This document shows, piece by piece, positions 4,658-22,513 of a stretch of DNA of 24,142 bases. The notes beneath the pieces are model-generated. The model did no database searches and was not told where the DNA came from. It worked only from the letters and a program-made list of their open reading frames with translations. Origin of the DNA: Candidatus Zipacnadia bacterium. Lineage in GTDB: Bacteria > Armatimonadota > UBA5377 > JALGUK01. The stretch lies in contig JALGUK010000005.1 in NCBI GenBank assembly GCA_029820875.1, positions 1-24,142 of the forward strand, in the 5' to 3' direction. The position numbers were made by a program, and so were the translations under genes. Each line of letters starts with the position of its first letter. Position 1 is the stretch's first letter.

Positions 4658-4702
4658 CGCGTTCCGCCCTCCTGTTGAACCTGAAATCGGTCTCACTCGC
4701 CC

Positions 4703-5854: not shown

Positions 5855-5922
5855 GCAAGTAGCACTCCTTCTCGCATTCAGTGTTGCGATTATCGCGCAA
5901 CCGTCCCGGCGCAGGGATTCCC

Positions 5923-7647
5923 TTACTCACCGGTGTGCACAACTCGAAGAGCCTCTTCGATTGTCGTGATACCTTGAAGCACCTTCGAGATCGCGTCCTG
6001 CTTCAGCGTTACCAGCCCGAAATTCTTAATCGCCGTCTCACGAATTTCATGCGCTGGCGCCTCGCGTAAAATCATATCCCGGATAGTATCGTTGATGGTC
6101 AACAATTCGTAGATGCCAATCCGCCCGCGGTAGCCGTCGTGACACCGGTCGCAACCCTTGCCCTTGTAAAAGGTCACGCCTTCAGTGTCGGCGAGTGACA
6201 CCCCCAGCTTCTCGAACGCCTCCTTCGGGGGCGCATAGCGCTCCTTGCAATGAGGGCAGATACGTCGGACCAGGCGTTGGGCCAACACCCCGATAACCGA
6301 CGAAGAGACCAGGAACGGCTCAACGCCCATCTCGATCAGTCGCGGGAGTGCACCGCACGAGTCATTGGTGTGGAGGGTGCTCAGGACAAGGTGCCCGGTC
6401 AGGGCCGCTTCAGTGGCAATCTTTGCAGTTTCTCCGTCGCGGATCTCACCCACCAGAATGATATCAGGGTCCTGCCGGAGGAACGTCCGGAGGATGGCCG
6501 GAAAGGTCATCCCCGCCCGTTCGTTGACGTTCGCCTGCGTGAGGCCGCGGACCTGGAACTCCACGGGATCCTCTGCGGTACAAACATTGACCTCCGGCGT
6601 ACTGATCTGCTGGAGCGCCGAATACAACGTGACCGTCTTTCCGCTACCGGTCGGCCCGGTTACCAGCACGATTCCGAAGGCGCGACCGATTAGGCCTTCA
6701 AACTTCTGCAGGGTCTCAGTGGACATCCCGAGCTTGCTGAGGCCCAGGCTGATGGTCGCCTTGTCCAGAATTCGCATGACGATCTTCTCGCCATTGGCAC
6801 CCGGAAGACTCGAAACGCGAAAGTCATAGTTCTTCCCGCCGATAACCAATGAGATTCGACCGTCTTGCGGCGCCCGCTTCTGGTCTATCTTCATATCCGC
6901 CATGACCTTCACACGGGAAATCACCGCCGGCTGCGCCGCCTTGGGAACCGACATCACGTCACGCAGAACCCCGTCTGCACGGTACCGGACCCGCAACTCA
7001 TCATCTTCCGGCTGCAGATGTATATCGCTGACTCCCTCCTTTACGGCGCGGGTAATCAGCATGTTGACCAGCCGGACGATAGGCGGTTCGCCGCTGAGCG
7101 AGTCGAGGTCCTCCAGACTCAACTCCTCGTCTTCGATCTTCTCCTGTACATCCAGTTCCTCGGTGCCCATCTCACCGAGAACGTCCTCCAGCTCTTCGGA
7201 CACGGTTGTCGTTTCACCGCCGAGGTCGTTGATGGCCTGCATCACGTCATCCTCGGTGGTGATGACCGGTTCCACCTCATACTCATAATTGGTGTGGAGG
7301 CGGATCTGGTCGATGGCCATAACGTCAATCGGATTGACCATCGCTACCGTGAGCTTCCCGTTGTCCTTCGCGATCGGAATCATCTTATAGCGCTTGAGCA
7401 GGCTCTGGGGTAACAGTGTTGCGGCCTCGTGATCCACTTCGATCTCGTCAAGCGCTATGAAGGGGACGCCCCATTGCATCCCGAGGCACATCTGGTTCTC
7501 GGTCTCCGTGATGTAGCCCATGTTGACCAAGATCTTGCCCAGGAACTCGCCCGTCTCTTCTTTGATTTTGAGAGCTTCCTCGAGCTGTTCCTGGGTCAAT
7601 TCTGTGTTGTCAACAAGGATTTGACCCAGCAGTTTTGTGTCAAGCAC
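5923..7647 (-). CDS. pilB: Type IV pilus extension ATPase PilB
   Basis: Hexameric cytoplasmic ATPase that drives pilin polymerisation. It is 574 residues long. Residues 1-140 are a T2SSE N-terminal (MshEN-like) domain with two LGxIL-type repeats (7-29 and 36-58). About 145-185 is a very acidic linker. The ATPase core has Walker A GPTGSGKT (331-338), AEDPVEF (358-364), Walker B DPDIILVGEIRD (393-404) and His box GHLVLSTLHTND (418-429). Zinc cysteines are 464/467 and 499/502, as in PilB/GspE but not PilT. The GTG at 7647 has GAGGA about 5 nt upstream. The MshEN domain binds c-di-GMP in some homologues; here its first repeat lacks several consensus residues, so binding is uncertain. Confidence 0.96.
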   Translation of the reverse strand: MLDTKLLGQILVDNTELTQEQLEEALKIKEETGEFLGKILVNMGYITETENQMCLGMQWGVPFIALDEIEVDHEAATLLPQSLLKRYKMIPIAKDNGKLTVAMVNPIDVMAIDQIRLHTNYEYEVEPVITTEDDVMQAINDLGGETTTVSEELEDVLGEMGTEELDVQEKIEDEELSLEDLDSLSGEPPIVRLVNMLITRAVKEGVSDIHLQPEDDELRVRYRADGVLRDVMSVPKAAQPAVISRVKVMADMKIDQKRAPQDGRISLVIGGKNYDFRVSSLPGANGEKIVMRILDKATISLGLSKLGMSTETLQKFEGLIGRAFGIVLVTGPTGSGKTVTLYSALQQISTPEVNVCTAEDPVEFQVRGLTQANVNERAGMTFPAILRTFLRQDPDIILVGEIRDGETAKIATEAALTGHLVLSTLHTNDSCGALPRLIEMGVEPFLVSSSVIGVLAQRLVRRICPHCKERYAPPKEAFEKLGVSLADTEGVTFYKGKGCDRCHDGYRGRIGIYELLTINDTIRDMILREAPAHEIRETAIKNFGLVTLKQDAISKVLQGITTIEEALRVVHTGE

Positions 7648-7715
7648 CGTTCCTCACCGCCGATACAATTGTAAGGGTGGCGTGAGGGGCACCGCTGCAC
7701 CGCAAACAACAAGCG

Positions 7716-7779
7716 GGGCATCAGGGATGAGGTGCCCGCTCCAAGCTGCCTGCCATCCTGACAACACCTCGGAGCGGGC
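7716..7779 (-). other. Competing hairpins in the pilQ-pilB gap
   Basis: This 174-nt gap (7648-7821) contains two mutually exclusive stems. One is GGGCATC (7716-7722) with GGTGCCC (7731-7737), 7 bp including a G-U pair, with an 8-nt loop. The other is GCCCGCTCC (7734-7742) with GGAGCGGGC (7771-7779), a perfect 9-bp stem with a 28-nt loop. A further 6-bp pairing, GAGGTG (7729-7734) with CACCTC (7765-7770), is also possible. The arrangement could modulate pilB expression relative to the upstream genes; no function is demonstrated. Confidence 0.4.
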
Positions 7780-7821
7780 CATCTTTCCCCAACAATACAG
7801 ACAAGTCGCCAGGGACAGAGG

Positions 7822-10791
7822 TTATCCTTCCGAGGGCGCCCGGGGGCTGACAGCGCGCGTGTCCTTCACACTTTCAGACGTCTTTGACAGTTGACTGTTC
7901 AATAATGACTCGGACGAGGCCGTACTCGCCTGTTTCTGCCCGTCCAAGACCTCGATAGTCGCAATGATGACCAGTTCAGTCGTGCGCTTTGTGTGGCGAC
8001 GATGCTCAAACAGCTTCCCGAAAATCGGAATCTTGCGCAGGAAGGGTATTCCTTGCATCGTCTCCAAGTCCTCTTCCTGAAGCAGCCCGCCGATTACGAT
8101 GGAGTCACCGTCGTGCAGCCGCATGTATGTGCTCGCCTGGCGGGTGGAGACGTCGGGGTACCCCTGCGGCGTGAACCCGAGAATACTGCTGACCTCCGGG
8201 GCTATATACAGAGTCACCGAATTGTCGGATGCCACCGTCGCGTTGAAATTGAGCTTCACACCGACCTCTTCGAACGCCACGCTGCGAGTCACCGTGCCGG
8301 CCGCTGGGATTGAGATTTCGTACGGGATTCGCTCACCGACGAGAAGCGTGGCATCCTTGCCGTGCAATGCAATCAAAGTCGGCCTGGCCAGAATCTTGTT
8401 GTTCTGATCGCGCTGGACCAGATCAAGGATGGCTGAGAAGTCGAATGCGCCGCGACTGTATTTCCCGAAGCTCATGCCGTTGGCCGCAACGCTCTCGTTC
8501 AGCACTACCCCGGGTAAGGTCCACTGCAGACCCTTGGTGCTGTCCTTGCTGCGCACCATGTCTACAACGAGCGTGCGTATGCGGACCTGCTTGGGCGGGA
8601 CATCCATCTTCTTGATGGCGGCTTCAACCTCGTCGACAACATCTTTCGGTCCGCTTACAATCAGCCAGGCGCCTTCAGGTGCCTCGCCGCCCTTTGCTCC
8701 GGTCTTGGTCGGGATGCCCACCGCTGCGGGTGCAGTGGTAGCTGGCAAGTAAGGCAACGCAGGCGCGGCTGCTGGAGCTGCCGCCCCTCCCTCGCCTGCA
8801 GGTGCTGTGCCGCCTGCCCCTTGAGCACCGGCTCCAGGCGTCATCGGGAGAGCCACCTTCTCGCCGGGAATGGTCACCTGGACGCCCTGGCTGGTATATT
8901 GGGTCATAATCCGCAGCTTCACCACTTCGGGCTTGGCATAATCAACATAGACAACCCGTGCGATTCTCGGCTGAGTGCTGACGACCGGCCGCGGAGTCAC
9001 TTCCGCGGGGTTCTTATCCACCATCGCCAGATAGTCGGCCGCCCGCTTTATGTCATCTTCGAACCCCTTAAGCGTGATTACCTTCCCCGCCACATATGTC
9101 ATTGCGGGGCCTACCTGCTGCACGTTCTCAGCTGTGATGACCTGCACATCCGGCACTTGATTCGCGAGGAGCGCCTTCGCCTCGCTCGGCAGCAGGAAAT
9201 TCAACTCGTAAAGCTGGTCGGCCTGGTTCTCAGGCACATCCAGGCTCGCAAGGCGCCGGTCTATCCACTCCCGGACGGGGCCTTCGGGCGCGTTGGTGAA
9301 CAGCACAGTCTTCTTACTGGTCTTGCGGACACCGAGATTGGGATAGGCAGTCGCATTCGCGAACTCTTCCAGAACCTTTTCGGGGCTGACGTACTTCAAT
9401 GGGGGCGGAATGTACTCCGCCTCAACCTTTTCCTTTTGGACAGCAAGCTCCGGGAATTGAGCAAGTTTTTCCGGGGGCGCGATAATATATGTGCGGTTGT
9501 TCCGCAGAGCGTATGCATAGCCGTAAAGGCGAGTTATCAGGTCCAGAGCATCCTCGAGCGTCACCTGTGAAAGATGAACGGTGACCTCGCCTGTAACATC
9601 CGGACTGGCAACGATGTTCTTATCGCTATAGGCTGCCAGGGCCGATAGCACATCAACGATGTCCGCCTTGTAGAAGTCAATGTCTATCAGCTCTTCGCCT
9701 TTGGCCGCCGACGGAGCCTTCCGAGGCCTCTGGGCAACCTTTGGCCCGGTGGTTCCTGTGAGGACCGTCCCGCCTTCCGAGGGAGCGGCCGAGGCGAGCC
9801 TTGTCGGCCGTTCGCGCACTTCGGCAACAATTCGATTCTTACCGGGGAGCGTGAACGCGCTGCAAGATGCAGGCCGAGTGAGAACAAGTGTCACTTCCAC
9901 CGAACCATTGGCCTGGTTCTGGGTAGCCGTAACACTCTCGACCAGCTTGCCATCACCGTTTACTGTGTTTGGACAGTCCGGTGCAAGGGACGCCCCGTGC
10001 AGAACGACCACATACCGAAACGGATTGATCATCCTGCGGGTATTGTAGTCCTGCAATTCCCCGGTGAAGTCTACATCCAGTCGGAAATGCTTCGCACCGG
10101 TCTCAACGGCCACGCCAGTCACGGATGCTGTAGTCTCCGGCGCGCTGGGCCGTCCGACCGACGCCGACTGCGCCTTAGCCACCTTTGCCCGGGCGGGGGC
10201 TTCGGTTGACAGGTCTGTCGAGGGCTTAGGAGCTGCCTCCGGTTCCTGGACAACCAAAGATGGCGGCACATCGGCGCTTGCAACCGGCTTTGCGGGTGCC
10301 GGCTTGCTTTCAGCGGGCCGTCCAAGGGCACCGATTTCAATCGCCAAGACGGTGCCATCTTTACTTGGATTGACGCTCCAGGGCATATCCTTGCTAAGGA
10401 GCGTTACCACGCGCGTAACCGGTGGGCGGGTCTTAAACAGACCTGCCTTCACATACTTGATCAAGCGCGTATTCGGGTTTCGGATGGTCTTGGTGCGCCC
10501 ATCACGGAACACGGCATTCGGGATGTCCACGATGAGACGGACCGGGGCTTTGTACGTTGTTGTCTTGTACTTGACCGGCTTCGTGGACTCGATGACGACA
10601 GTTGCACCGCTTCCCGTCTCGGCCACGGTAATGTTTGTGAGATTCGCCGGGCCATTGGAGCTGGCGACCGCGGGGCTGCTAAATCCTCCCACAGCCAGGG
10701 CCATTACCGTGAGGAAGACGACGAGTGATAACACTGGCATCATCGCCGGCGCACGGTGCCCCCGGTCTTGGTAGCTCGATTGGAGTTTCAT
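7822..10791 (-). CDS. pilQ: Type IV pilus secretin PilQ (two AMIN domains)
   Basis: Forms the outer-membrane channel through which the pilus exits. The 989 residues comprise a long-n-region signal peptide (hydrophobic MMPVLSLVVFLTVMALAVGGF, likely cut near AVAS at about 44) and two AMIN peptidoglycan-binding domains (about 50-154 and 222-326). They are followed by an STN/N0-like domain (368-440), NolW/N1-type domains (about 463-733) and the secretin core (736-950) with ILARPTLIALHGKDATLLVGERIPY and HDGDSIVIGGLL. A Gly/Ala/Pro-rich insert (about 651-696) interrupts the last N-domain. The frame is open to 10887, but AGGAGGG at 10800-10806, 8 nt before the ATG at 10791, and the signal peptide fix the start there. 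An ATG at 10851 with GGAG upstream is a weaker alternative. Confidence 0.93.
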   Translation of the reverse strand: MKLQSSYQDRGHRAPAMMPVLSLVVFLTVMALAVGGFSSPAVASSNGPANLTNITVAETGSGATVVIESTKPVKYKTTTYKAPVRLIVDIPNAVFRDGRTKTIRNPNTRLIKYVKAGLFKTRPPVTRVVTLLSKDMPWSVNPSKDGTVLAIEIGALGRPAESKPAPAKPVASADVPPSLVVQEPEAAPKPSTDLSTEAPARAKVAKAQSASVGRPSAPETTASVTGVAVETGAKHFRLDVDFTGELQDYNTRRMINPFRYVVVLHGASLAPDCPNTVNGDGKLVESVTATQNQANGSVEVTLVLTRPASCSAFTLPGKNRIVAEVRERPTRLASAAPSEGGTVLTGTTGPKVAQRPRKAPSAAKGEELIDIDFYKADIVDVLSALAAYSDKNIVASPDVTGEVTVHLSQVTLEDALDLITRLYGYAYALRNNRTYIIAPPEKLAQFPELAVQKEKVEAEYIPPPLKYVSPEKVLEEFANATAYPNLGVRKTSKKTVLFTNAPEGPVREWIDRRLASLDVPENQADQLYELNFLLPSEAKALLANQVPDVQVITAENVQQVGPAMTYVAGKVITLKGFEDDIKRAADYLAMVDKNPAEVTPRPVVSTQPRIARVVYVDYAKPEVVKLRIMTQYTSQGVQVTIPGEKVALPMTPGAGAQGAGGTAPAGEGGAAAPAAAPALPYLPATTAPAAVGIPTKTGAKGGEAPEGAWLIVSGPKDVVDEVEAAIKKMDVPPKQVRIRTLVVDMVRSKDSTKGLQWTLPGVVLNESVAANGMSFGKYSRGAFDFSAILDLVQRDQNNKILARPTLIALHGKDATLLVGERIPYEISIPAAGTVTRSVAFEEVGVKLNFNATVASDNSVTLYIAPEVSSILGFTPQGYPDVSTRQASTYMRLHDGDSIVIGGLLQEEDLETMQGIPFLRKIPIFGKLFEHRRHTKRTTELVIIATIEVLDGQKQASTASSESLLNSQLSKTSESVKDTRAVSPRAPSEG

Positions 10792-10879
10792 CGCGGAATC
10801 CCTCCTCTGGAGTGGGCCCTGCTGCATCATTTGTCTCGTCTGGTTCTGCATGGTAGCACTCCGCCTCCAACGAACGGGT

Positions 10880-10900
10880 TTCGCCAAAACTGCCGGCGAA
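10880..10900. repeat. Small hairpin in the pilP-pilQ gap
   Basis: Perfect 6-bp inverted repeat TTCGCC / GGCGAA with a 9-nt loop, just past the pilP-like stop. No U-run follows. It lies between two co-directional pilus genes and may affect mRNA stability; nothing more can be said. Confidence 0.3.
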
Positions 10901-11882: not shown

Positions 11883-12515
11883 CTAACGCGACGCCACCGC
11901 CACAAACTTGCCAGGGAACCCCCCGCCCTCCATGATGAACGCTGTCAAATCCAGCACTGTGTCGAGCTTTGGAGATGTCCCGGCAGGTACCTGGACAGTC
12001 GTGACTGCCTTGAAATCAATGTCATTGACGGTAACCATTTGCGGCATCTGGCCAAGCTGTTTAATCGTGTTGAATACGGCCGAAAACGGCCCTGACAAGC
12101 GGAATGTAATATCATACTCGCCGTACTTGCCCAGAGGTGCGTTGCCTTCGCCCGACCCGAGCTTCTTGCCCTTACGATATTCCCGAGGGCGCAGTTCCTT
12201 GAACTCAGCCCCGGTGAGACTTGCAACGCTTTCGATTCGTTTTGTGAACGCAGGTATGTACTCCCGCTCAGTCTGCTTTATATGGATTCCGGCCAACTGC
12301 GCGTTAAGCTTTCGGAGTTGCTCCTCCAGTTGAGCAATCGGTTTGGACTCCACTTCTTTCTTGAGTTCCTTGCGCTGCTTGTCCAGCCTGCTGTATTCGG
12401 AGTCGGCCTTGAGCAGCCGAGCATTCAGGTACACCAGGCTTACAACCACAATAACAAGGCACACCGCTGCGGAGACTCCAAAGAGCAGAGCTGGTTTCGC
12501 CTTGGCGGCGCTCAT
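11883..12515 (-). CDS. pilO: Type IV pilus alignment protein PilO
   Basis: A 210-residue bitopic inner-membrane protein that pairs with PilN in the alignment subcomplex. It has one N-terminal TM segment (LLFGVSAAVCLVIVVVSLVYL), then a coiled coil of about 50 residues, then a ferredoxin-like PilO domain (YGEYDITFRLSGPFSAVFNTIKQL, then a VNDIDF strand). Its ATG overlaps the pilN stop in an ATGA, showing translational coupling and supporting the identification. Sequence similarity alone is weak, as usual in this family. Confidence 0.88.
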   Translation of the reverse strand: MSAAKAKPALLFGVSAAVCLVIVVVSLVYLNARLLKADSEYSRLDKQRKELKKEVESKPIAQLEEQLRKLNAQLAGIHIKQTEREYIPAFTKRIESVASLTGAEFKELRPREYRKGKKLGSGEGNAPLGKYGEYDITFRLSGPFSAVFNTIKQLGQMPQMVTVNDIDFKAVTTVQVPAGTSPKLDTVLDLTAFIMEGGGFPGKFVAVASR

Positions 12516-13126
12516 TTGCTCTCAACTCCTATCAGCTTACCCAGGGTGGCCACCAGCTCAAACTGGTATATCTGCCTGTTCTGCATCTTCTGCGACATAA
12601 TGGAGTTGATGTAGGCGTTCTGGACGCTGTCAGTCCGCTGCAAACGCTTGACGAACTCAGCGACGCTGTCCGGGCTGACGGCCTGGCCGCGCAGCGTGAG
12701 ATTATGCTGCTTCTCGACCCTTCTCGACCCGCCGCTTGCCGACTTCACCCTCGGGCCGCCGCCGGTGCCTGAGCTTAATGTGGTCAGCCATACGCCCGGA
12801 GGAGTGGCATTGCCGACATCTCGCAACACCTCTAACCACTCCCGTTCGCTCTTACGGGCGTTTTCCAGAAGCTTCACTATGGGCCTTTTTAGCTGAATCT
12901 CAGCTTCCTTGGCGTCAATCAGCTTCTTGGCTTCTTGGAGCTTCGCAATCTCCTTGTGTGCGCTCTTGATTTGCGCACCTTTCACCGCAAGCCGGGCACC
13001 GTAGCTCAACCACACGACAATAAGTGAAACAAGCAGCAACGCGGTGACCATCAGGAATGTAAGCGCGATTTTCTGCTCGCGTTGTTGAGCCGCCCGCCGT
13101 TCGGCAATTAGATTGATATCAATCAT
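12512..13126 (-). CDS. pilN: Type IV pilus alignment protein PilN
   Basis: A 204-residue bitopic inner-membrane protein. Its cytoplasmic N-terminus (MIDINLIAERRA) matches the INLLPxR-type segment that docks into PilM. A TM segment follows (IALTFLMVTALLLVSLIVVWL), then a coiled coil and a PilN ferredoxin-like domain (WLEVLRDVGNATPPGVWLTTLS ... LTLRGQAVSPDSVAEFVKRLQ). The start is the ATG at 13126, about 10 nt after GAGG; a GTG three codons earlier sits too close to that site. It lies 48 nt after pilM and overlaps pilO by 4 nt. Confidence 0.93.
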   Translation of the reverse strand: MIDINLIAERRAAQQREQKIALTFLMVTALLLVSLIVVWLSYGARLAVKGAQIKSAHKEIAKLQEAKKLIDAKEAEIQLKRPIVKLLENARKSEREWLEVLRDVGNATPPGVWLTTLSSGTGGGPRVKSASGGSRRVEKQHNLTLRGQAVSPDSVAEFVKRLQRTDSVQNAYINSIMSQKMQNRQIYQFELVATLGKLIGVESK

Positions 13127-13174
13127 TACGTCCACACCTCGCTCGTGGTGCGGCGTTCGGCTTATCCTATTGCA

Positions 13175-14371
13175 TTAGGTAACTGCAGCCGTTGCTTCGG
13201 TTTCCGCTGCCGGCGGCGGCACTATATACTGGGGCCGGCCAGAGAAAGGATACTTCCCCTTCTGCATCACGTTTGTGAGTGCCAGCCCCATCGCTACAGG
13301 CATAATAGGAGCCAGTTGGCCCAATGTAGCTGCATCAAATTGGCTCGTCTGGATGGCTAAGTCGCGGAAAACGTCACCCTTCTCTACGCGTGCCCCCAGT
13401 TGCGCTTCCAGATATTTGTCTAAATTCTTGAGATTGGCAGTGCCACCGGTCAACACTATTTTATGAACCACGGGTTGCGACGGATCAAGCTGGAACTGCG
13501 CTGCCAAGAAGTTGAAAGACCGCCTGACATCGCGAACGATTTCTTCAAGCGTGGGAGCAATAATCTGACTGAGTTGCCGTGCATTCGGGGCCAGTGACGC
13601 AGCTTCTTCACGTGTGGCAGCGATGCCGTGCTCGATCTTAAACGCCTCTGCCTGGGCCTCGTCACTCTTGAGGGCTGTGGCGATGGCTTTCGTCAGGTTG
13701 TTGCCGGCAATCGCAACCGTGCGCGGAAGCACGAATGCCCCGTTGCGCACCATCGTCATTTCAGTGAAACTGGCTCCCACACGGATAAGGGCAATGGTTT
13801 GCTGGAATGTCGCCGCATCACGGTGGCCATATATCTGCGACCGCAGGCTGGCGAATTGCTCGGTATCAACGATAGCCGGCGTAAGGCCAGCCGCCAGGAT
13901 CGTGTCAACATAGCTGTTGACGATCTCGCGCCGAACCGCAACCAACAGCACGTCCATCTGAGGACCCTTATCTTCGGGATTCAGAACCTGAAATTCGATT
14001 ACACAGTCGGCAATATCGAAGGGGACATGGGCGCGAGCTTCAAATGTGACCGCACGCCGGAGTTCCTTCTTGGGGGTTCGGGGCATCTTGATAGGCTGGA
14101 CAAACAGCGAGGGGTCAGTGACGGCAGTGGCAACTTCGGTGCCCTGGAAGTCGTTTTCCTCAACCAGCTTGCGTACGGCTGCCGCTACTGCTTCTTGTTC
14201 AACAATAACGCCATTTTGAACCGCGCCAGGAGGTGTGGGTATAACACCTACGGCCCTCAGCTCTATTCCGCGCTTGGCATCAACCTGGGCGCCCTTAATC
14301 GAATGGCTCCCGATGTCGAGACCAATCAGCGGTCCTCCACCAAAAAGCTGCGACAAAGGACCTCCTGCCAC
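13175..14371 (-). CDS. pilM: Type IV pilus assembly protein PilM
   Basis: An actin-like cytoplasmic ATP-binding protein that recruits the PilN N-terminus. The 398 residues include phosphate-1 motif IGLDIGSHSIKGAQV (about 16-30), KKELRRAVTFEARAHVPFD (typical PilM subdomain 1C), TIALIRVGASFTEMTMVRNG and the adenosine motif VLTGGTANLKNLDKYL. The start is GTG at 14371 after GGGGGGATTGAT. The C-terminal 25 residues are Pro/Ala-rich. It is the first pil gene, 269 nt downstream of the pseudo-GTPase gene, and has its own candidate promoter. Confidence 0.95.
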   Translation of the reverse strand: MAGGPLSQLFGGGPLIGLDIGSHSIKGAQVDAKRGIELRAVGVIPTPPGAVQNGVIVEQEAVAAAVRKLVEENDFQGTEVATAVTDPSLFVQPIKMPRTPKKELRRAVTFEARAHVPFDIADCVIEFQVLNPEDKGPQMDVLLVAVRREIVNSYVDTILAAGLTPAIVDTEQFASLRSQIYGHRDAATFQQTIALIRVGASFTEMTMVRNGAFVLPRTVAIAGNNLTKAIATALKSDEAQAEAFKIEHGIAATREEAASLAPNARQLSQIIAPTLEEIVRDVRRSFNFLAAQFQLDPSQPVVHKIVLTGGTANLKNLDKYLEAQLGARVEKGDVFRDLAIQTSQFDAATLGQLAPIMPVAMGLALTNVMQKGKYPFSGRPQYIVPPPAAETEATAAVT

Positions 14372-14640: not shown

Positions 14641-15198
14641 CTATTCCCCTGCGTTCACCGGCTTACCGGCAGGACGTTTAAGTGAGGCCGCGATACACCG
14701 AAACAATTCGCAAAGCAACGCCTTAACGCTTTCTCGATCGGTGCAATCGCAAGCCCGCGTCACGACACCCGGGCCCACATCAAGACCTTTCCGCACCTGC
14801 TCGATGATGGCCTCGTCGTCACTCTCCGCGCCGTTGACACCGACCACGAAAGGAATCGAATTGCGCGAAAGGACGCTCAGCATATGACGTGTATCGTCCA
14901 GTTCCGTAACGTGATCGGCGCTGGCCAACATAACGAATCCTACTGCATCCTGACCGAGAATCTGCCACATGAAGTCGGATTCTCGATCGGAGGGCAACAC
15001 GTAAAGCTGCAAAACAGTGGATGAGTCAATAACAATCTGTCCGAACTCGAGAGCGTGATGTGCACGCGTGCGCTTGGCGCGGTCAAAACGACTCGCCCCC
15101 ATAGATGACGGGGCAGTAGTAACATCGCTGATGCTTTCCACCAGCTCTCTCTTCCCCGAGCCTTCCGCACCCGCGATAAGAATCTTGACGGCTGCCAC
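14641..15198 (-). CDS. Degenerate MglA/CvnD-type small GTPase
   Basis: A 185-residue Ras-superfamily G-domain by pattern: VKILIAGAEGSGKREL (P-loop), HHALEFGQIVIDSSTVLQLYVLP, FMWQILGQDAVGFVMLASAD, IPFVVGVNG and a C-terminal VTRACDCTDRESVKALLCEL. It resembles the CvnD-like GTPases encoded beside roadblock proteins. Key residues are altered. The P-loop reads GAEGSGKR, with Arg in place of the Mg-binding Ser/Thr. The switch-II PGQ/DxxG is replaced by LPSDRE, and G4 is VNGAESD rather than NKxD. The GTG at 15198 has GGAG 6 nt upstream and is preferred to the GTG at 15210, which has no clear site. It lies 105 nt after the DUF4388 gene. Probably a nucleotide-insensitive or slow scaffold; this is inference. 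Confidence 0.75.
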   Translation of the reverse strand: MAAVKILIAGAEGSGKRELVESISDVTTAPSSMGASRFDRAKRTRAHHALEFGQIVIDSSTVLQLYVLPSDRESDFMWQILGQDAVGFVMLASADHVTELDDTRHMLSVLSRNSIPFVVGVNGAESDDEAIIEQVRKGLDVGPGVVTRACDCTDRESVKALLCELFRCIAASLKRPAGKPVNAGE

Positions 15199-15303
15199 GA
15201 GCTTCTCCACCCGGCTTTCATTTCTCGTCCCGCCAGCCTTCCGCCCGGATTCGACACCCCTCTGAACGAGTCTGAGCAGCTCTTGTAGCTGGTAGGCTCA
15301 AGT

Positions 15304-15954
15304 TCACAGGCTCTGGAGCCGTGCTACAATCCTGTCCAACAGTTCGGGCGTGAGGTCGGCAAATCTGATGCTCTCCGTTGAGATATCGCGCTTGGGCTCA
15401 GTCTCAGACGCCACCCTGGCACCCGCCTTCACGAGACCCGCATTCATCAACTGATAAACTGCATCGCAGACCGGAAACTTTGCAAGGCCGCTTTCGCGTA
15501 TGACATCACCAAACGTCCGCTGTCCGTCAATCAGGGAGCGCACCTTTTCGATCTCAGGTGTAACCTCTTCCAATTCTCCCGTCGCTTGCTCTTCCGGCAC
15601 GGGTACCAGGCACACGTTTTCGGGCGGTAGGGCATCCTTCATCCGCTCCCAGTGGTCCATGCGTCGGGCGCCTTCGAGCATGAGGTTCTCGGCGCTCTCA
15701 CGGACCGTTACGGGACAATCCACCTCGGTCGCGTCGAAGGAAAACTTACCCGAGGTCCGTGTGAACAACTCGTAGATCACCTCTTCCCCCTCTACCTGGC
15801 CCGAGACCGCGTGACAGATGTTTCCGTCCCGGAAGTAGACGGAGATTACTTCGCCTTTCTCCGTGACCGTCAGAATACCGGTCTTGCGGCCCATCGCAAT
15901 CAATTGGACGACATCAGTAGGCCCGATTTCGCGCAGAGACCCGGATAAGGCCAT
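15304..15954 (-). CDS. DUF4388 (PATAN) domain protein
   Basis: 216 residues. Residues 1-100 form a DUF4388/PATAN domain: MALSGSLREIGPTDVVQLIAMGRKTGILTV, VYFRDGNICHAVSG, GEEVIYELFTRTSGKFSFD. About 105-185 looks like a winged-helix-type module (IEKVRSLIDGQRTFGDVIRESGL ... VYQLMNAGLV), and a short C-terminal helix follows. The protein is cytoplasmic and has no receiver domain. From cyanobacterial work known to me, PATAN response regulators contact the pilus motor (PilB1/PilC). The location between mglB and the pilus genes makes a motor adaptor role plausible but unproven. The start is the ATG at 15954 with a weak GGGGA about 12 nt upstream. Confidence 0.85.
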   Translation of the reverse strand: MALSGSLREIGPTDVVQLIAMGRKTGILTVTEKGEVISVYFRDGNICHAVSGQVEGEEVIYELFTRTSGKFSFDATEVDCPVTVRESAENLMLEGARRMDHWERMKDALPPENVCLVPVPEEQATGELEEVTPEIEKVRSLIDGQRTFGDVIRESGLAKFPVCDAVYQLMNAGLVKAGARVASETEPKRDISTESIRFADLTPELLDRIVARLQSL

Positions 15955-16141: not shown

Positions 16142-16627
16142 CTACTTTTGCTCCGGGAACAGATCTGTGGGCACATCGGCGTGAACCGCTTCGCCGAAGA
16201 TGTCAGGCGGTTCACGTTCGGATGCTTGCTCAAAGACTTTGCCGAGCCGCTCCGCCGTCTGGGCTGCATACAGGCGTACCATTCCGAGTGTCGTCTGTTG
16301 GTCGAAGACCGTCACCATGATTGTTTCCTTGCCGGCGAGCGTAACATAGATGTGCTCGGTCTTCCCTTCATGGACCAACGAGGAAAACTCGTCCTCGCCG
16401 ACCAGGCGGGCGATTTCCTTGGTTGAGGCAAAGGCCCCTGCTGCTAATGCAGCCAACGATGTTGTATCAATGTTAGTCGTGAATCCTTGTTTTGCGACCA
16501 GTTGACCGTTTCTGTGCACCAGCAGACAACACTTGCACTCAGACTCTTCGACAAACTCCTGGAGGGTCTGGTCAATGAGTTCCAAGTCCTCGGGGTAAAT
16601 GACGAAGTTGTCGCCGTTCACGGCCAC
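16142..16627 (-). CDS. mglB: MglB, roadblock/LC7 GAP partner of MglA
   Basis: 161 residues. MglB is the GTPase-activating and polarity partner of MglA in myxobacteria and Thermus. The roadblock/LC7 fold covers about 8-135 and is close to characterised MglB at NGQLVAKQGFTTNIDTTSLA, LVGEDEFSSLVHEGK and FDQQTTLGMVRL. A variable acidic C-terminal tail (136-161) follows, as in MglB. The start is GTG at 16627 with GGAGG 7 nt upstream. It lies 138 nt after mglA; the order mglA-mglB is the reverse of Myxococcus mglBA. Confidence 0.9.
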   Translation of the reverse strand: MAVNGDNFVIYPEDLELIDQTLQEFVEESECKCCLLVHRNGQLVAKQGFTTNIDTTSLAALAAGAFASTKEIARLVGEDEFSSLVHEGKTEHIYVTLAGKETIMVTVFDQQTTLGMVRLYAAQTAERLGKVFEQASEREPPDIFGEAVHADVPTDLFPEQK

Positions 16628-17493: not shown

Positions 17494-17829
17494 TCACAAC
17501 TTCAGTCGTTCGACTGCGCTCCGCATTTCCAGACGCACAAGCCCGACATTGACGTCACTATCGGCAATTAGGACCAAAATGCCTTTCTCTGCCTCGCTCA
17601 TGAACACCTTCCCCGCGGTCGCGTCCAGCATAGCCTGGACAAGGCTGCCGCGGTCTGTCCTTTGGAGGCAATCATTGGTTCGCGCCGCCAGCGTGGCCGC
17701 CATCGCGGCGATTCTATCGCTGTCAATGTTGGCGTCCACGTCCGAAACCACCACCATCCCGTCTCGGGTGACGAACATGCTTCCGCGGACACCGGAGACC
17801 CGATTCAGAGCTGAGAGAACTTCTTGCAC
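17494..17829 (-). CDS. Free-standing roadblock/LC7 domain protein
   Basis: 111 residues forming one roadblock/LC7 domain: VLSALNRVSGVRGSMFVTRDGMVVVSD, RIAAMAATLAARTND, GKVFMSEAEKGILVLIAD, VNVGLVRLEM. It is distinct from MglB and shorter. The frame stays open to 17907, overlapping the upstream gene, but GTG at 17829 has AAGGA 8 nt upstream and yields a standard-length domain, so it is preferred. It lies 43 nt after the giant repeat gene and 134 nt before mglA. It is likely a dimerising partner for one of the GTPases or the other roadblock proteins. Confidence 0.85.
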   Translation of the reverse strand: MQEVLSALNRVSGVRGSMFVTRDGMVVVSDVDANIDSDRIAAMAATLAARTNDCLQRTDRGSLVQAMLDATAGKVFMSEAEKGILVLIADSDVNVGLVRLEMRSAVERLKL

Positions 17830-17872
17830 GTCCAGTTTCCTTCCCAACGCCGACCCCCTGGTCCGGGTCGCG

Positions 17873-20800
17873 CTACCAGCGAATGCCGCTGAGCGCCTCT
17901 GCAGCATCTTCCAGCTCCACCGCCGCCTTAGCCGGTCGCAGCGGCTCCTCAGCGCCGGCGCATAGTACGGCTCGCCGCGTTTTGCAATCCAGTACCGCGA
18001 CTCCGATAGCGGTATCGGTCGTGCAAATCACAATCCGCGCGGCGGCACCCAAGCCGGCCACCTGTGCACATTGAATCGCAGCATCTGCAATGTCACTGCC
18101 TGCAGCGGACAGCCTCGCCGTCACCGAACGTGCAGCGAAGGTGATTACCTTACGCCCGTCTGCACGTCCAAAAAGCTTTGCTTGCATCGCGCCCATCGGC
18201 TTGTGGCTGCGTGTGAGGCTAACCGTTGCCGCTTGCGCCTCTGCTGTCATCTCCTGAACCGAGAAATCGGCTGAGCGATCCCACGGCTCCAGTTCGATGA
18301 ATGGTGTCTCGCTCCAATCGAAATCCTTCAGTGCGGACAGAGCTCGCTTCGCCAGCAACTCGGCCTTGCCCAAGTTTGTACCCTCAAGAGCCTCCACGCA
18401 AACATTCATCGTGAGGCCTTCAGGCCCGGCCGCACCATAGGCGAGTAATGCCCCATTCTCGGCCTGTAACAATATCGCGGTGACGTCGCCCGCATTGAGA
18501 GCCCAGGACAGCCGCTGAACATGGGTGAGGAGGTTGCCGACGTTGTCTCGAGCTGCTTGCGCGTCAGCAGTTGCAGGCGCTAATAATGCAACGCGCGCTC
18601 CATGGGGAGCTACGAAATACGACGGTTCGAGACGTTCGGGTGCTATCTGCGCGAGTCCCGCAGGAATACGCTCAAGAACTCCCGACCTCTCCATATCTGC
18701 AATCCGCTCACGGTCGCTGGCGCTGAGTCCTATCTCTTCGAATACAAACTCCACCAGCTCCGGAGCTTCTTCCTCCGCAACCCGGTGCTCCTCGCCGGCG
18801 GGCGCAGCCGCGGGCTCTGGTTTCTCCTCCACGGCCGCGGGTGCCGATGGCTGCTCGAACAGCGGCTCCTCTATAAACTCTGCAGCTTCCTCGGCTTTCG
18901 AGGGGGCAGCCTCGACTATGTGCTCTTTGACCTGTGGGACAACTTCTCCCAGCGGCAGCTCAAACGTGCCATCCGGCAACTCGTTGACCAGCGTGGCCAA
19001 GGGTATTGTCAAAGCCGCCTCCGGGATTTGCTCTGCAATTACGTCGGCATCCACACGAATCTCGCCGGCCGTAAGCTGACCCAAGACCAGCTTCTCGTCA
19101 ACCAAAAACACGCCGTGTTCCAACTGGGCTATGATTCTCGACGGCTCCATAGCCAACACATCCGTCGGGATCTGTGAGAGGATTGCTTCGGCACTCACGC
19201 TGACCAGCGCTTCCGCTTCGGTTGGCTCTTCTACCTCCGCAGCCTCCGCCGCCGGAGCAAACAATGGGACTTCCTCTTCCTCAGGAGCCTCCTCTTCCAG
19301 TACAGGTGCCTCCTCGGCAGGCGCAAACAACGGCGCCTCCTCTTCCACCTCGGTTGGCTCTTCCGCTTCCACAACTTCCGCCGCCGGAGCAAACAATGGG
19401 TCCTCTTCCGCTTCGGAGGGTTCTTCCGCTACCTCCTCCGGCGCTGCAGGCTCCACCTCAAAGCTGAATAACGGCGCAGACAACTCTTCAATCTCCTCTT
19501 CCGGAGCCTCCTCCGCCTGCGAAGTCATTACAGATGTGAGTTGTGGGACGACTTCTTCGAGCGGGAGTTCCACGTTCCCGTCCGGCATGGCTTCGAGTAA
19601 TTCCTGCTCGGATTTCACCAGGGCATGGGAGGGGAGCTGAGCGACAATAATGGAGAGCGGCACGCGAACCTGCCCTTCGCCAAGCTGCGGGAGCACATGG
19701 CTGGCATCCACCTCAAAGCAGCCGTCCGGCAGCGTTGCCGCGATTTCATCAGGGGCCATTCCCAGCGCATCCGAGGGGAATTGTGCAAGGATTGATTCGG
19801 CATGGACTCGAACCCGCTCCACCGACGGCGCTGTCGGCGGCACCGCAGTCACGGCCTCCGCCTGCGGTTCCTCTGCAGCTGGAGTTGGAGCTTCCTCGGC
19901 GAACGGCTGGAAAAGAGGCTTAGCCTCTTCCTCTGCGACCTGCTCAACAGAAGCCTGTTCCTCGACGGCGGCCTCCGGTTCGGGGGCCGCCTCCTCTGTC
20001 TCGCCGGCGACCGGAGCAGCCTCTTCGCCTTCTTCAATCTCAAATTGGAAGAGCGGTTCCTCACCGAGGTCGAATTCTTCCACGACCTGATCTGTGCGGG
20101 TGAGCATGGCAGGGCTAATCTGAGGTACGATTTCCTCCAGGGGCAGCTCAATCAGACCATCGGGAACCTGCTCGCTGAGATCTGCCTCAGAGACTGCTAG
20201 TGCACCTGGCGGCATCTGCCCGATAACAAGCGAAGCAGGCACGCGCACCTCGCCCTCGGAAAGCTGTGGCAATACCTCGTCGACAGGTATGCGAAAGACC
20301 CCATTATCGAGTTGCTGCTGGATGGCCTCCGCGTCCATGGCAAGCGCATCCGGCGGGAACTGGGATAGGATGGACTCGGCCGACACCCGAATCGCTTCAC
20401 CTTCGGCTACGGCACCCGCCGGTGCCTCCTGTGGCGCAGCCTCCTCGGCTACAGGCGCAGGCGCCTCAGGCACAGGCGCTTCTTGCTCAGTAAGAGGCGC
20501 CGGTTCCTCCGGAGCTACTTCGAAGGTGAATGCGGTCTCCTCTTTGGCCTCGGTTTCCTCAACTTCCGGAGGCGCAAACAATGCCTCCTCTTCGGCTGCA
20601 CCCTCTTCGGTAAACAGGAGGGCCTCCTCAGCGGCTTCGGCGGGCGGCGAAGGCAGGGGGCCGGCCTCCTGTTCGGGGACCGTAAGCGTTTGAGCAAATG
20701 GGGAAGGAGTCTCTTCCTTTTGCTCCTCTTCCGGCTCGGCCGCCTCTTGAGCCGCCAGCGCCGCTAACGCTCCTGCCAGCGCATCCTCCGTTCCCGTTTC

Positions 20801-21418
20801 CGCCTCCGCCGGCTCGGCCTGGATAGCCTCGGCGGTCTCAGGCTCAACCGGTGGCGGTGCTTCCTCTTCGGTGACAGGCACCTCAGGCGCAGCAGCTTCG
20901 GGCGCTTCCGGTGGTGTCGGAGGGACGGCTTCGACTGCTGGTGGAGGTGCGGCCGCGGGCGGTGCATAGCTTTCGGCAGGTGCCGCCGGAGCGACTTCCT
21001 TGGGGAAGAAGCGCCGACGTATAATGGCCAGGGCGATGATGTTGAGGGCTATAGTCACTGCAACGGGGATAACAGCCCTCAGGTACACGGTTGCGAAGCC
21101 CTCGGAGATAGGAACGCTCTTGTTCAACCCCGCTGCGGCCCCGGCCATAGCCGCTCGCCACACAATCGCGAACAGCAGCGCTCCTACGCTGCTTTTGAAG
21201 CTGGCTCCCCGTCCCCAGAGACCGATAAGAACGATGTACAGGAGCAACTCGGCTGCTGGAACGGCGTAAACCAAGGGGTCTTTGAGCACAGGGCCGAACG
21301 GCTTCCCGCTTTTGGTCAGGAACCATGCCGCCGCGGCACCGAGCAAAAGCAGTATAACGGCAATAATAGTTGCGGCCTTGCTGCCGCTCTGTACAGAGGG
21401 TGCTTGTGGTTGCGCCAT
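17873..21418 (-). CDS. Giant membrane-anchored acidic repeat protein, 18 x 16-residue motif
   Basis: 1181 residues; I do not recognise the family. There are four N-terminal TM segments (about 15-35, 48-69, 77-98, 109-134). A long Pro/Ala/Glu-rich, probably disordered region follows, then three homologous 96-residue blocks at 344-439, 537-632 and 740-835. Each block is exactly six 16-residue units, such as RIPVDEVLPQLSEGEV and RVPASLVIGQMPPGAL, with consensus [R/E]-V-P-x3-[IV]-[LV]-x-Q-[LI]-P-x-G-x-[VLF]. Acidic linkers carry about ten PLF-type motifs. A folded C-terminal region (about 888-1181) has beta/alpha segments such as VTAILLQAENGALLAYGA and IVICTTDTAIGVAVLDCKTRRAVLC, possibly two divergent roadblock-like domains. 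The start is the ATG at 21418 with GAGG 6 nt upstream. It sits between two roadblock genes upstream of mglAB, suggesting a membrane scaffold for that system. Confidence 0.88.
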   Translation of the reverse strand: MAQPQAPSVQSGSKAATIIAVILLLLGAAAAWFLTKSGKPFGPVLKDPLVYAVPAAELLLYIVLIGLWGRGASFKSSVGALLFAIVWRAAMAGAAAGLNKSVPISEGFATVYLRAVIPVAVTIALNIIALAIIRRRFFPKEVAPAAPAESYAPPAAAPPPAVEAVPPTPPEAPEAAAPEVPVTEEEAPPPVEPETAEAIQAEPAEAETGTEDALAGALAALAAQEAAEPEEEQKEETPSPFAQTLTVPEQEAGPLPSPPAEAAEEALLFTEEGAAEEEALFAPPEVEETEAKEETAFTFEVAPEEPAPLTEQEAPVPEAPAPVAEEAAPQEAPAGAVAEGEAIRVSAESILSQFPPDALAMDAEAIQQQLDNGVFRIPVDEVLPQLSEGEVRVPASLVIGQMPPGALAVSEADLSEQVPDGLIELPLEEIVPQISPAMLTRTDQVVEEFDLGEEPLFQFEIEEGEEAAPVAGETEEAAPEPEAAVEEQASVEQVAEEEAKPLFQPFAEEAPTPAAEEPQAEAVTAVPPTAPSVERVRVHAESILAQFPSDALGMAPDEIAATLPDGCFEVDASHVLPQLGEGQVRVPLSIIVAQLPSHALVKSEQELLEAMPDGNVELPLEEVVPQLTSVMTSQAEEAPEEEIEELSAPLFSFEVEPAAPEEVAEEPSEAEEDPLFAPAAEVVEAEEPTEVEEEAPLFAPAEEAPVLEEEAPEEEEVPLFAPAAEAAEVEEPTEAEALVSVSAEAILSQIPTDVLAMEPSRIIAQLEHGVFLVDEKLVLGQLTAGEIRVDADVIAEQIPEAALTIPLATLVNELPDGTFELPLGEVVPQVKEHIVEAAPSKAEEAAEFIEEPLFEQPSAPAAVEEKPEPAAAPAGEEHRVAEEEAPELVEFVFEEIGLSASDRERIADMERSGVLERIPAGLAQIAPERLEPSYFVAPHGARVALLAPATADAQAARDNVGNLLTHVQRLSWALNAGDVTAILLQAENGALLAYGAAGPEGLTMNVCVEALEGTNLGKAELLAKRALSALKDFDWSETPFIELEPWDRSADFSVQEMTAEAQAATVSLTRSHKPMGAMQAKLFGRADGRKVITFAARSVTARLSAAGSDIADAAIQCAQVAGLGAAARIVICTTDTAIGVAVLDCKTRRAVLCAGAEEPLRPAKAAVELEDAAEALSGIRW
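18914..19201 (-). repeat. Repeat block 3 of the giant protein (6 x 16 residues)
   Basis: Units in order: SVSAEAILSQIPTDVL, AMEPSRIIAQLEHGVF, LVDEKLVLGQLTAGEI, RVDADVIAEQIPEAAL, TIPLATLVNELPDGTF, ELPLGEVVPQVKEHIV. No gaps are needed to keep the 16-residue register. This block is the most diverged of the three. Confidence 0.9.
19219..19400 (-). repeat. 132-bp duplication in the acidic linker
   Basis: Two imperfect copies of about 50 bp (19219-19268 and 19351-19400) lie exactly 132 bp (44 codons) apart; the last 24 bp are identical. Both encode PLFAPAAE followed by an EVEEPTEAE-like stretch. The in-frame spacing and near identity indicate a recent tandem duplication of linker sequence. Confidence 0.75.
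19523..19810 (-). repeat. Repeat block 2 of the giant protein (6 x 16 residues)
   Basis: Units: RVHAESILAQFPSDAL, GMAPDEIAATLPDGCF, EVDASHVLPQLGEGQV, RVPLSIIVAQLPSHAL, VKSEQELLEAMPDGNV, ELPLEEVVPQLTSVMT. Unit n of this block is most like unit n of block 1, so whole 96-residue blocks were duplicated after the 16-mers had diverged. Confidence 0.9.
20102..20389 (-). repeat. Repeat block 1 of the giant protein (6 x 16 residues)
   Basis: Units: RVSAESILSQFPPDAL, AMDAEAIQQQLDNGVF, RIPVDEVLPQLSEGEV, RVPASLVIGQMPPGAL, AVSEADLSEQVPDGLI, ELPLEEIVPQISPAML. Block starts are 193 residues (1 to 2) and 203 residues (2 to 3) apart, separated by acidic linkers. Confidence 0.9.
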
Positions 21419-21507
21419 TGTCCGCCTCACCTCACACACACCGGATTCGAAACGCTCTGAACGGGCAAAACCACTGTCCTGAGCCTCACGGCCAGGCCTT
21501 GGGGCTT

Positions 21508-22377
21508 TTACAGCGACGCCACGTATCTGCGGCTTCTGTCAATCTGCACCTTAAGTAACCCCAGTTTGGCGTTCGGCTCGTTGACGACCACCAGAAAGAA
21601 TTCGTTCATCGGATACAGGACCATGTTCCCGTTCGTGCCGTCTATAGTGCCGCCCACGAACTCGCCAAGCTGCATGCCGCCAACGTATTTCTTTGCATTG
21701 TTGCCGATTTCCGCGACCATAGCGCTCATAACATTCTCTGGAAGGTCGGCGTTCAGTTCACCCGCGACCGGCAGACCGTCCTCCCCCACTAACAGTGCTC
21801 CCACTACACCCTCCGTATTCTTGAGGTCTGCAAGAAGCTGTTCAAGAGTGGCTGAGATACCAGGCGGCGCTTGCTCAGCTTCTGTATCTGTGACCGATTC
21901 ACGAGCCCTGGCCGGGGCTTGTGCTCTCGGCTGTTGCCGTACAGAGGATAGAGCACTGAGGGCCTCCTGAGCTTTTTCAAGCAATTGCTTGGCGGTGGGG
22001 TTACCCCGGTTCAGCAACAAAATGTGTTGAAAATGGTCCGCAGCCGCTTGGAATTCACCGCTGTCGAGGAGTATCCGTCCCAGGAACATACGCGCAACAA
22101 GGTTCTGCGGCTGTTGTCGAAGCACGTCCTCAAACTCCTGCCGGGCCTCCGCGATATCCCCTCCCTGCAGCAGTATCTGCCCCAGTATAATTCGGCCCGT
22201 GACATAGTTGGGATGAATGCGGATACCGTGCTGACAGACGCTCCGCGCTGTTTCCAGTTGTCCCGCCTCACGGAGCGCATCTGCCAGCAGTGCAAAAGTG
22301 AGCGACTTTGGGTCGCGTTGTAGTTCCTCGCTGTACTGGCGGATCCGTTCCGCCAACGCGGGCGCTGAACGCTGCAT
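21508..22377 (-). CDS. TPR protein with C-terminal roadblock/LC7 domain
   Basis: 289 residues. About 23-137 forms three to four tetratricopeptide repeats (e.g. LADALREAGQLETARSVCQ, LGQILLQGGDIAEARQEFED, LGRILLDSGEFQAAADHFQH). A charged linker (138-173) leads to a roadblock/LC7 domain (about 174-285; LEQLLADLKNTEGVVGALLV, EDGLPVAGEL, GTIDGTNGNMVLYPMNEFFLVVV, LGLLKVQI). No signal peptide or TM is seen, so it is cytoplasmic. TPRs usually bind peptides; here the acidic tails of the adjacent giant protein are a possible ligand (inference). The start is the ATG at 22377 about 10 nt after GGAGGTGA; nine upstream in-frame codons overlap that site. It is the first confident gene of the minus-strand series. 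Confidence 0.92.
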   Translation of the reverse strand: MQRSAPALAERIRQYSEELQRDPKSLTFALLADALREAGQLETARSVCQHGIRIHPNYVTGRIILGQILLQGGDIAEARQEFEDVLRQQPQNLVARMFLGRILLDSGEFQAAADHFQHILLLNRGNPTAKQLLEKAQEALSALSSVRQQPRAQAPARARESVTDTEAEQAPPGISATLEQLLADLKNTEGVVGALLVGEDGLPVAGELNADLPENVMSAMVAEIGNNAKKYVGGMQLGEFVGGTIDGTNGNMVLYPMNEFFLVVVNEPNAKLGLLKVQIDRSRRYVASL

Positions 22378-22387
22378 CGTGGCACGC

Positions 22388-22513
22388 TCACCTCCGCACG
22401 CCACCGATTGCCATCCAGTCCACCTGCACCGGCATAAGGATATCTAACAGCCTCACCGGCAATTCGGCGGAAGTCACAGCCGCTTCAAACGGTCCATTCA
22501 CTTTTTGATTCAT
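22388..22513 (-). CDS. Possible 41-residue leader ORF
   Basis: ATG at 22513 to TGA at 22390-22388. The peptide is mixed in composition (MNQKVNGPFEAAVTSAELPV, then about 20 more residues) and matches no family I know. Its stop overlaps the GGAGGTGA ribosome site of the TPR-roadblock gene, the layout of a translationally coupled leader. No good ribosome site precedes its own ATG, so it may be chance. Confidence 0.25.
   Translation of the reverse strand: MNQKVNGPFEAAVTSAELPVRLLDILMPVQVDWMAIGGVRR

Follow-up and report, generated by a model that had tools for sequence, protein, structure and literature searches.

MglA-based polarity is known mainly from Myxococcus. Ragulator/LAMTOR has subunits of the roadblock type. 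The latter acts as a membrane-anchoring scaffold that docks small GTPases (PMC5680233), whereas in Myxococcus xanthus SgmX, FrzS and SopA link MglA to type IV pilus formation, SgmX being a protein with 14 TPRs (PMC11580455). For some MglA groups, genes of PATAN (DUF4388) proteins are found near mglA/mglB (PMC4316618).

The locus described here lies in a stretch of 24,142 nt from Candidatus Zipacnadia bacterium (Armatimonadota), referred to as the window. Like the MglA/MglB modules with PATAN it holds mglA, an mglB-like gene and a nearby DUF4388 gene. A block protein beside mglA, as encoded here, is however not among the partners described in the portion of PMC4316618 consulted, and the word stem Armatimon is absent from the main text of that paper. 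The role we propose for this giant protein, an MglA-dependent partner tied to type IV pili, resembles that of SgmX (PMC11580455), but the protein lacks a TPR match in the Pfam scan and has four predicted transmembrane (TM) helices, 16-residue repeats and roadblock-like ends. The likeness to Ragulator/LAMTOR concerns the plan only, namely several small roadblock-type domains on a membrane anchor. In contrast, the window protein is bacterial, belongs with MglA and not with Rag GTPases, and has a polytopic anchor and extra repeat domains. What is new is the domain family beside mglA, while the MglA polarity module as a kind is already known. Our literature searches found no paper linking Armatimonadetes with MglA and none linking DUF4388 with type IV pili.

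The features of the window are summarized in Table 1. A first-pass annotation, made from the sequence alone, had proposed a roadblock/MglA context for the giant protein. MglA and an MglB-like protein are indeed encoded in the window, and this context is consistent across genomes. The scaffold of a polarity complex that the annotation also envisaged is putative.

Table 1. Features of the window. All residue numbers of the giant protein count from the GTG start.
Feature	Position	Strand	Basis
AMIN-secretin, pilB-like, pilT-like and pilC-like genes	3437..10887	-	domain matches
pilM, pilN, pilO	11883..14371	-	domain matches
Small protein with GxxxxGK-like (P-loop-like) start	14641..15210	-	sequence read
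DUF4388 (PATAN) protein	15304..15954	-	domain match
mglB-like roadblock protein	16142..16627	-	E 3e-29 to MglB of solved structures; Robl_LC7
mglA, 197 aa	16766..17359	-	E 5e-74 to MglA of solved structures, residues 1-195
Second roadblock protein, overlapping 3' end of the giant gene	17494..17907	-	Robl_LC7
Giant block protein gene	17873..21439	-	ORF call; 1188 codons if counted from the GTG, with the ATG at 21418 as likely start
Roadblock-like domain 2, approx. residues 1075-1188	17876..18217	-	hhalign prob 96.2 vs the same 10 sequences as domain 1
Roadblock-like domain 1, approx. residues 945-1074	18218..18607	-	hhalign prob 85.6 vs 10 roadblock sequences of these loci
EPLF motif, 16-19 residues past block 3	18857..18868	-	motif search
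Block 3, six 16-mers, residues 747-842	18914..19201	-	repeat scoring, profile
APLF motif, 16-19 residues past block 2	19466..19477	-	motif search
Block 2, six 16-mers, residues 544-639	19523..19810	-	repeat scoring, profile
EPLF motif, 15-18 residues past block 1	20048..20059	-	motif search
Block 1, six 16-mers, residues 351-446	20102..20389	-	repeat scoring, profile, predicted structure
N-terminal region, four predicted TM helices, residues 16-140	21020..21394	-	hydropathy; profile match
Protein with TPR and roadblock domains, upstream of giant gene	21508..22404	-	domain matches

From the N-terminus the giant protein consists of four predicted TM helices, an acidic linker, the blocks and two roadblock-like domains. 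Its relative P0003, which is 95% identical, begins at an ATG matching codon 8 of the window gene; the first-pass annotation had counted residues from this in-frame ATG. The 18 repeats of 16 residues that it reported in three blocks of six at 18914-20389 turned out to be exact to the base, on the minus strand and all gap-free. Position 10 of the unit is Gln in 15 of the 18 units, position 7 is hydrophobic in all 18 and position 2 in 17, whereas Pro at position 12 and Gly at position 14 occur in 10/18 each. The mean unit-unit BLOSUM scores are 18.2, 10.3 and 11.4 for blocks 1 to 3, compared to means of -12 to -13 for residue shuffles (2000 per block, highest shuffle -1.1), resulting in z values of 13.7, 11.2 and 11.2. 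Among the shifts examined (8-39) autocorrelation is positive solely at 16 and 32.

Equivalent units correspond across the blocks, as had been claimed: in-register alignments of the three block pairs yield 51, 45 and 43 identities per 96 residues. Every block pair also has a weaker alignment peak when one block is displaced by 48 residues in either direction or both, which suggests duplication of a half-block of three units. The proposed history of an ancient six-unit domain that was later triplicated is a simplified story, since there are relatives with a single block, the number of blocks ranges from one to four, and units 2 and 5 are poorly kept in the short relatives. This tree (37 rows) groups orthologous positions within close relatives, but leaves 14 of 34 inner branches open, carries a long-branch warning and does not resolve a single triplication of window blocks 1-3.

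A first protein search matched 10 proteins including the window protein, and the iterated profile located 27 blocks in them; among these proteins P0003 all but duplicates that of the window. P0005 carries four blocks, P0007 and P0008 carry two, P0011 has a single one and the six others have three. The phylum-wide search moreover revealed short relatives of ~315 residues with a single block behind the TM region. When alignments of the short relatives served as queries in two more protein searches, 21 and 16 proteins were matched, some of them identical to loci already identified. A scan with alignment A2 returned 2 loci out of 67 candidate stretches (one pattern only). The two protein-search matches that bear an organism name are both from Armatimonadetes/Armatimonadota. 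The block is a real, previously unnamed domain with one to four copies per protein in its relatives.

The first-pass annotation did not recognize the repeat as a named family, and our searches agree, since no convincing match of the block was obtained in Pfam, NCBIfam or among PDB sequences. A Pfam scan of the window protein at E ≤ 5 gave 0 families, and the precomputed Pfam annotation is '-' for every protein from all three protein searches. Scanned singly, the 21 block rows of alignment A1 (from the 27 blocks, omitting three of P0003, two of P0010 and one of P0005) matched just MTH865 (0.013) and DUF5805 (0.14) in Pfam, with one row each, and in NCBIfam blaCME with three rows (best 0.0033) and PRK10869.1 with one (0.3). 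We read all of these as chance, including blaCME against the whole window protein (17.4 bits, cut-off 600). Scanning 45 rows singly against Pfam (alignment A7, which omits P0013, P0015, P0020, P0045 and the G191 and G194 loci, the latter two represented by their database copies P0035 and P0034) yielded weak matches to three transporter or DUF families, one row each. Alignment A5 comprises 46 of 52 listed pieces. Weak matches to bL9 (0.12) and a homeobox protein (0.64) were rejected as family identity, as were a designed protein (0.047) and a sliding clamp (0.45) among PDB sequences. A literature search found no paper on a 16-residue repeat as a novel fold in bacteria.

The structure of the window block was predicted using AlphaFold2. 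The model is a confident alpha/beta unit (pLDDT ~92). A regular fold of short strand and short helix had been anticipated. The predicted structure is regular, but real strands are confined to units 1, 3, 4 and 6, while units 2 and 5 show single bridge residues in their place. In the short relatives, likewise, units 1, 3, 4 and 6 are retained, units 2 and 5 being eroded or loop-like. In two models, built from different alignments (window block and short relative), strands and helices follow one another in largely the same way; the short-relative model lacks the final helix (97-104) of the window block. Foldseek with the predicted window block returned no match in the PDB or the viral library. 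With the short relative no row reached E ≤ 0.001; the TM part filled the results, VIA rows covering mainly residues 1-136, and no block match appeared.

Short-period alpha/beta repeat proteins, e.g. the LRR type, combine a short strand, a short helix and a turn with a recurring polar residue. The window block is similar in its strand-helix-turn unit with a repeated polar residue, here Gln, but differs in having a period of 16 and six units, and neither sequence nor fold searches gave a match. There is a fair chance that the block domain itself represents a new fold. If so, it would add a very short repeat unit, six per block, to the known repeat architectures.

The four TM helices named in the first-pass annotation appear as four N-terminal hydropathy segments, and the model of a short relative contains four long helices or paired helices. 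For the relatives, the hydropathy count of N-terminal segments varies with the cut-off between two and four, a range also obtained at the setting that gives four in the window protein; an additional weak segment occurs in the latter at residues 1132-1150. A profile comparison aligns the large-form with the short-form TM region over the last two thirds of each (prob 73.9; ≤0.4 for three controls). After the TM region the window protein reads RRRFFPK. By the positive-inside rule we thus infer that the remainder of the protein is cytoplasmic.

The linkers of the window protein consist of 28% Glu, 22% Ala and 15% Pro. Phe motifs in variants such as PLF, PDLF and EDIF stand behind the blocks at a fixed distance: a Phe is present at +17 to +19 after 26 of 27 large-form blocks, with 1.8 expected from the local Phe content. 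This count omits L001, a near copy of P0008, and the tail counts omit P0003. If L001 is included and the pattern changed a little, the result is 27/29, one of them at +14. PLF-type motifs recur in the acidic linkers (window 17876-20960). P[LDI]F is found seven times in the linkers of the window protein, compared to a mean of 0.2 and a maximum of 3 in 5000 shuffles. P0003 contains an extra linker stretch of the same kind, linker length varying by internal repeats between P0003 and the window protein. Hence the tether seems to grow by internal duplication.

The C-terminal segments matched the roadblock sequences of these loci in a profile-profile comparison, nine control families reaching ≤0.2 for domain 1 and ≤0.3 for domain 2 (hhalign). 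As the Pfam scan of the C-terminal 245 residues gave 0 families, we label these domains roadblock-like. The short relatives, made up of four TM helices and one block, end soon after the latter and lack this C-terminus, which is thus not essential to the family. An extra gene upstream of mglA with a roadblock match exists in G002 (L080, 10355-11524, minus strand) and in G001 (L032, 7470-8450, minus strand), in both cases preceded by a TM stretch as judged by eye. These loci therefore hold still more roadblock modules.

To relate the block to mglA, 291 Armatimonadota genomes were surveyed (mglA threshold E ≤ 1e-20); the block searches scored at most 14-17 candidates per genome, which makes absences soft. 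mglA is found in 19/291 genomes. A confident block gene (E ≤ 2.7e-11) is present in 14, and all 14 are among these 19. Moreover, divergent members lie just upstream of mglA in G191, G192 and G193 with family-profile E values of 3e-4, 4e-9 and 2e-7 for the fetched ORFs (the G192 match was weak in the genome search, 7e-4). With the divergent ones included, 17 of 19 mglA genomes contain a member of the block family, and 16 of 19 an MglB-like match. Fisher p-values are 4.5e-20 (14 genomes) and 1.3e-25 (17 genomes), but kinship is uncorrected and the 19 mglA genomes probably represent few clades, so that these values overstate independence.

In the other 272 genomes no block gene was accepted, six weak matches having been dropped, four of them without ORF inspection. 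None of the six (G093, G105, G121, G122, G145, G147) belongs to the 19 mglA genomes. The search at E ≤ 0.01 matched 20/291 genomes, of which G093, G105, G121, G122 and G145 (E 0.001-0.006) were dropped and only the G145 ORF was inspected; an earlier phylum search matched 15/291, of which G145 and G147 were dropped, as both ORFs resemble ComM/Mg-chelatase. Two mglA genomes have no detected block gene. In G061, mglA, roadblock genes and DUF4388 are present with no block gene nearby, nor elsewhere at E ≤ 0.01. In G275 the contig ends ~1.3 kb upstream of mglA. G194, G195 and G196 possess the block gene and mglA with no MglB-like or Robl_LC7 match at E ≤ 1e-4 (contig 1 of G194 comprises 4.9 Mb). 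Several short-form genomes have the MglB-like gene outside the locus together with further roadblock genes (e.g. G197 contig 1).

In 13 short-form genomes (G195 excluded) the stop of the block gene precedes the start of mglA by 2-45 nt on the same strand. The large-form loci with both genes on one contig show distances of 1247 nt (G001) and 1390 nt (G276) with roadblock-type genes in between, while in G002 block gene and mglA are on different contigs. Of the 16 loci that hold both block gene and mglA, 13 have DUF4388 and pilM on the same stretch as well. On the stretches from G191-G193 mglA has no neighbouring pil genes (for G192 the contig spans just 6 kb); PilM-family matches are located on other contigs. 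The genetic link between block and MglA is strong and specific; the function is putative.

We lean towards the view that the window family is a membrane-anchored MglA partner for type IV pili that is new in sequence. The blocks would be copies of a new small alpha/beta domain, borne by a family of polytopic Armatimonadota proteins of the inner membrane whose partner is the Ras-like GTPase MglA. The four N-terminal helices would serve as anchor, and one or more blocks, each with its Phe motif at a constant spacing, would be carried on a flexible acidic tether in the cytoplasm. In the large forms the two terminal roadblock-like domains may offer extra docking sites for MglA-class GTPases or other roadblock proteins. 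The block domain would recruit or read MglA, most likely MglA-GTP, at the membrane; MglA or its signal would then be passed to the adjacent type IV pilus machine (on its PilM/PilB side, together with the PATAN protein). Valency would be set by block number and the roadblock-like ends, rising as blocks are added. In this way the block protein would fill an SgmX-like role through an unrelated protein; it is probably a local partner of the MglA switch helping to control pili, and may thereby take part in polarity. Such a dedicated, operon-linked membrane family in a distant phylum would show the same GTPase wired differently, and the short relatives represent a short testable module of ~315 residues with one domain. 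A bolder version is tentative: the block, with its six 16-residue units arranged as two halves of three, could be a new fold that arose in Armatimonadota as a membrane-bound receptor dedicated to MglA. In that case a second bacterial lineage would have devised an MglA effector of its own to act on type IV pili, and the large forms, fused to roadblock domains, would be a one-chain multivalent Ragulator-like GTPase platform.

The gene neighbourhood cannot separate effector, regulator and client. The main rival to an MglA partner acting on the pili is a regulator upstream of MglA, whose four-helix part would sense a membrane or envelope signal while block and roadblock-like domains govern exchange or hydrolysis of the nucleotide or store a pool of inactive MglA. 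A membrane part common to large and short forms would suit such a sensor, as would a block gene directly preceding mglA; roadblock proteins are known as regulators of MglA (MglB is both GAP and GEF, PMC11016934), and in the three genomes with neither MglB-like nor Robl_LC7 match another regulator of MglA may act. Considering that the block has no convincing Pfam, NCBIfam or PDB-sequence family match and that 16 of 19 mglA genomes do have an MglB-like match, we rate a regulator as unlikely. Less probable still is a structural or assembly part of the inner-membrane platform of the type IV pilus with an incidental closeness to mglA. Although the block gene shares a gene run with pilM in 13/16 loci, a PilM-family match exists in 278/291 genomes and a block in only 14-17, every one with mglA. 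The block thus follows MglA and not pili in general, and a general pilus part was rejected on these grounds. The block-mglA pair of G191-G193 without adjoining pil genes on the stretches examined, but with PilM-family matches on other contigs, points in the same direction.

The linker could also be the working part, its PLF motifs turning the acidic tether into a sticker-and-spacer chain that clusters partners, with the blocks as passive spacers. The excess of P[LDI]F motifs over shuffles and the internal repeats that alter linker length between P0003 and the window protein would be expected from such a chain; in the short relatives, however, the single block is conserved, the linker is short and a Phe is found solely close to the C-terminus, which leaves this idea very improbable. 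Finally, a chance or low-complexity origin of the repeat, to which the Ala, Glu and Pro richness outside the blocks might point, is refuted by z values of 11-14, conservation across many relatives and the confident predicted structure. We thus retain a membrane-anchored MglA partner for type IV pili as the preferred reading.

Some further genes of the window deserve mention. The secretin (7822-10887, minus strand) carries an AMIN domain at its N-terminus as well as STN and GspD N0-type domains and is situated within the pilMNO cluster. The small protein with the P-loop-like start gave no significant Pfam or PDB match and is possibly a degenerate second GTPase. Its relatives are found beside pilM in L020, L032, L078 and L080, and between pilM and DUF4388 in G001, G002, G275 and G276.

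At 2000-3361 (minus strand) the window encodes a Sigma-70 factor (regions 2, 3 and 4) fused to a C-terminal GGDEF domain. A GGDEF signature normally reads GG[DE]EF. As YEGGTF takes its place here, the domain is probably inactive. A literature search found no paper on such a sigma-GGDEF protein in Armatimonadetes. In G276 a relative closes the run of pilus genes.
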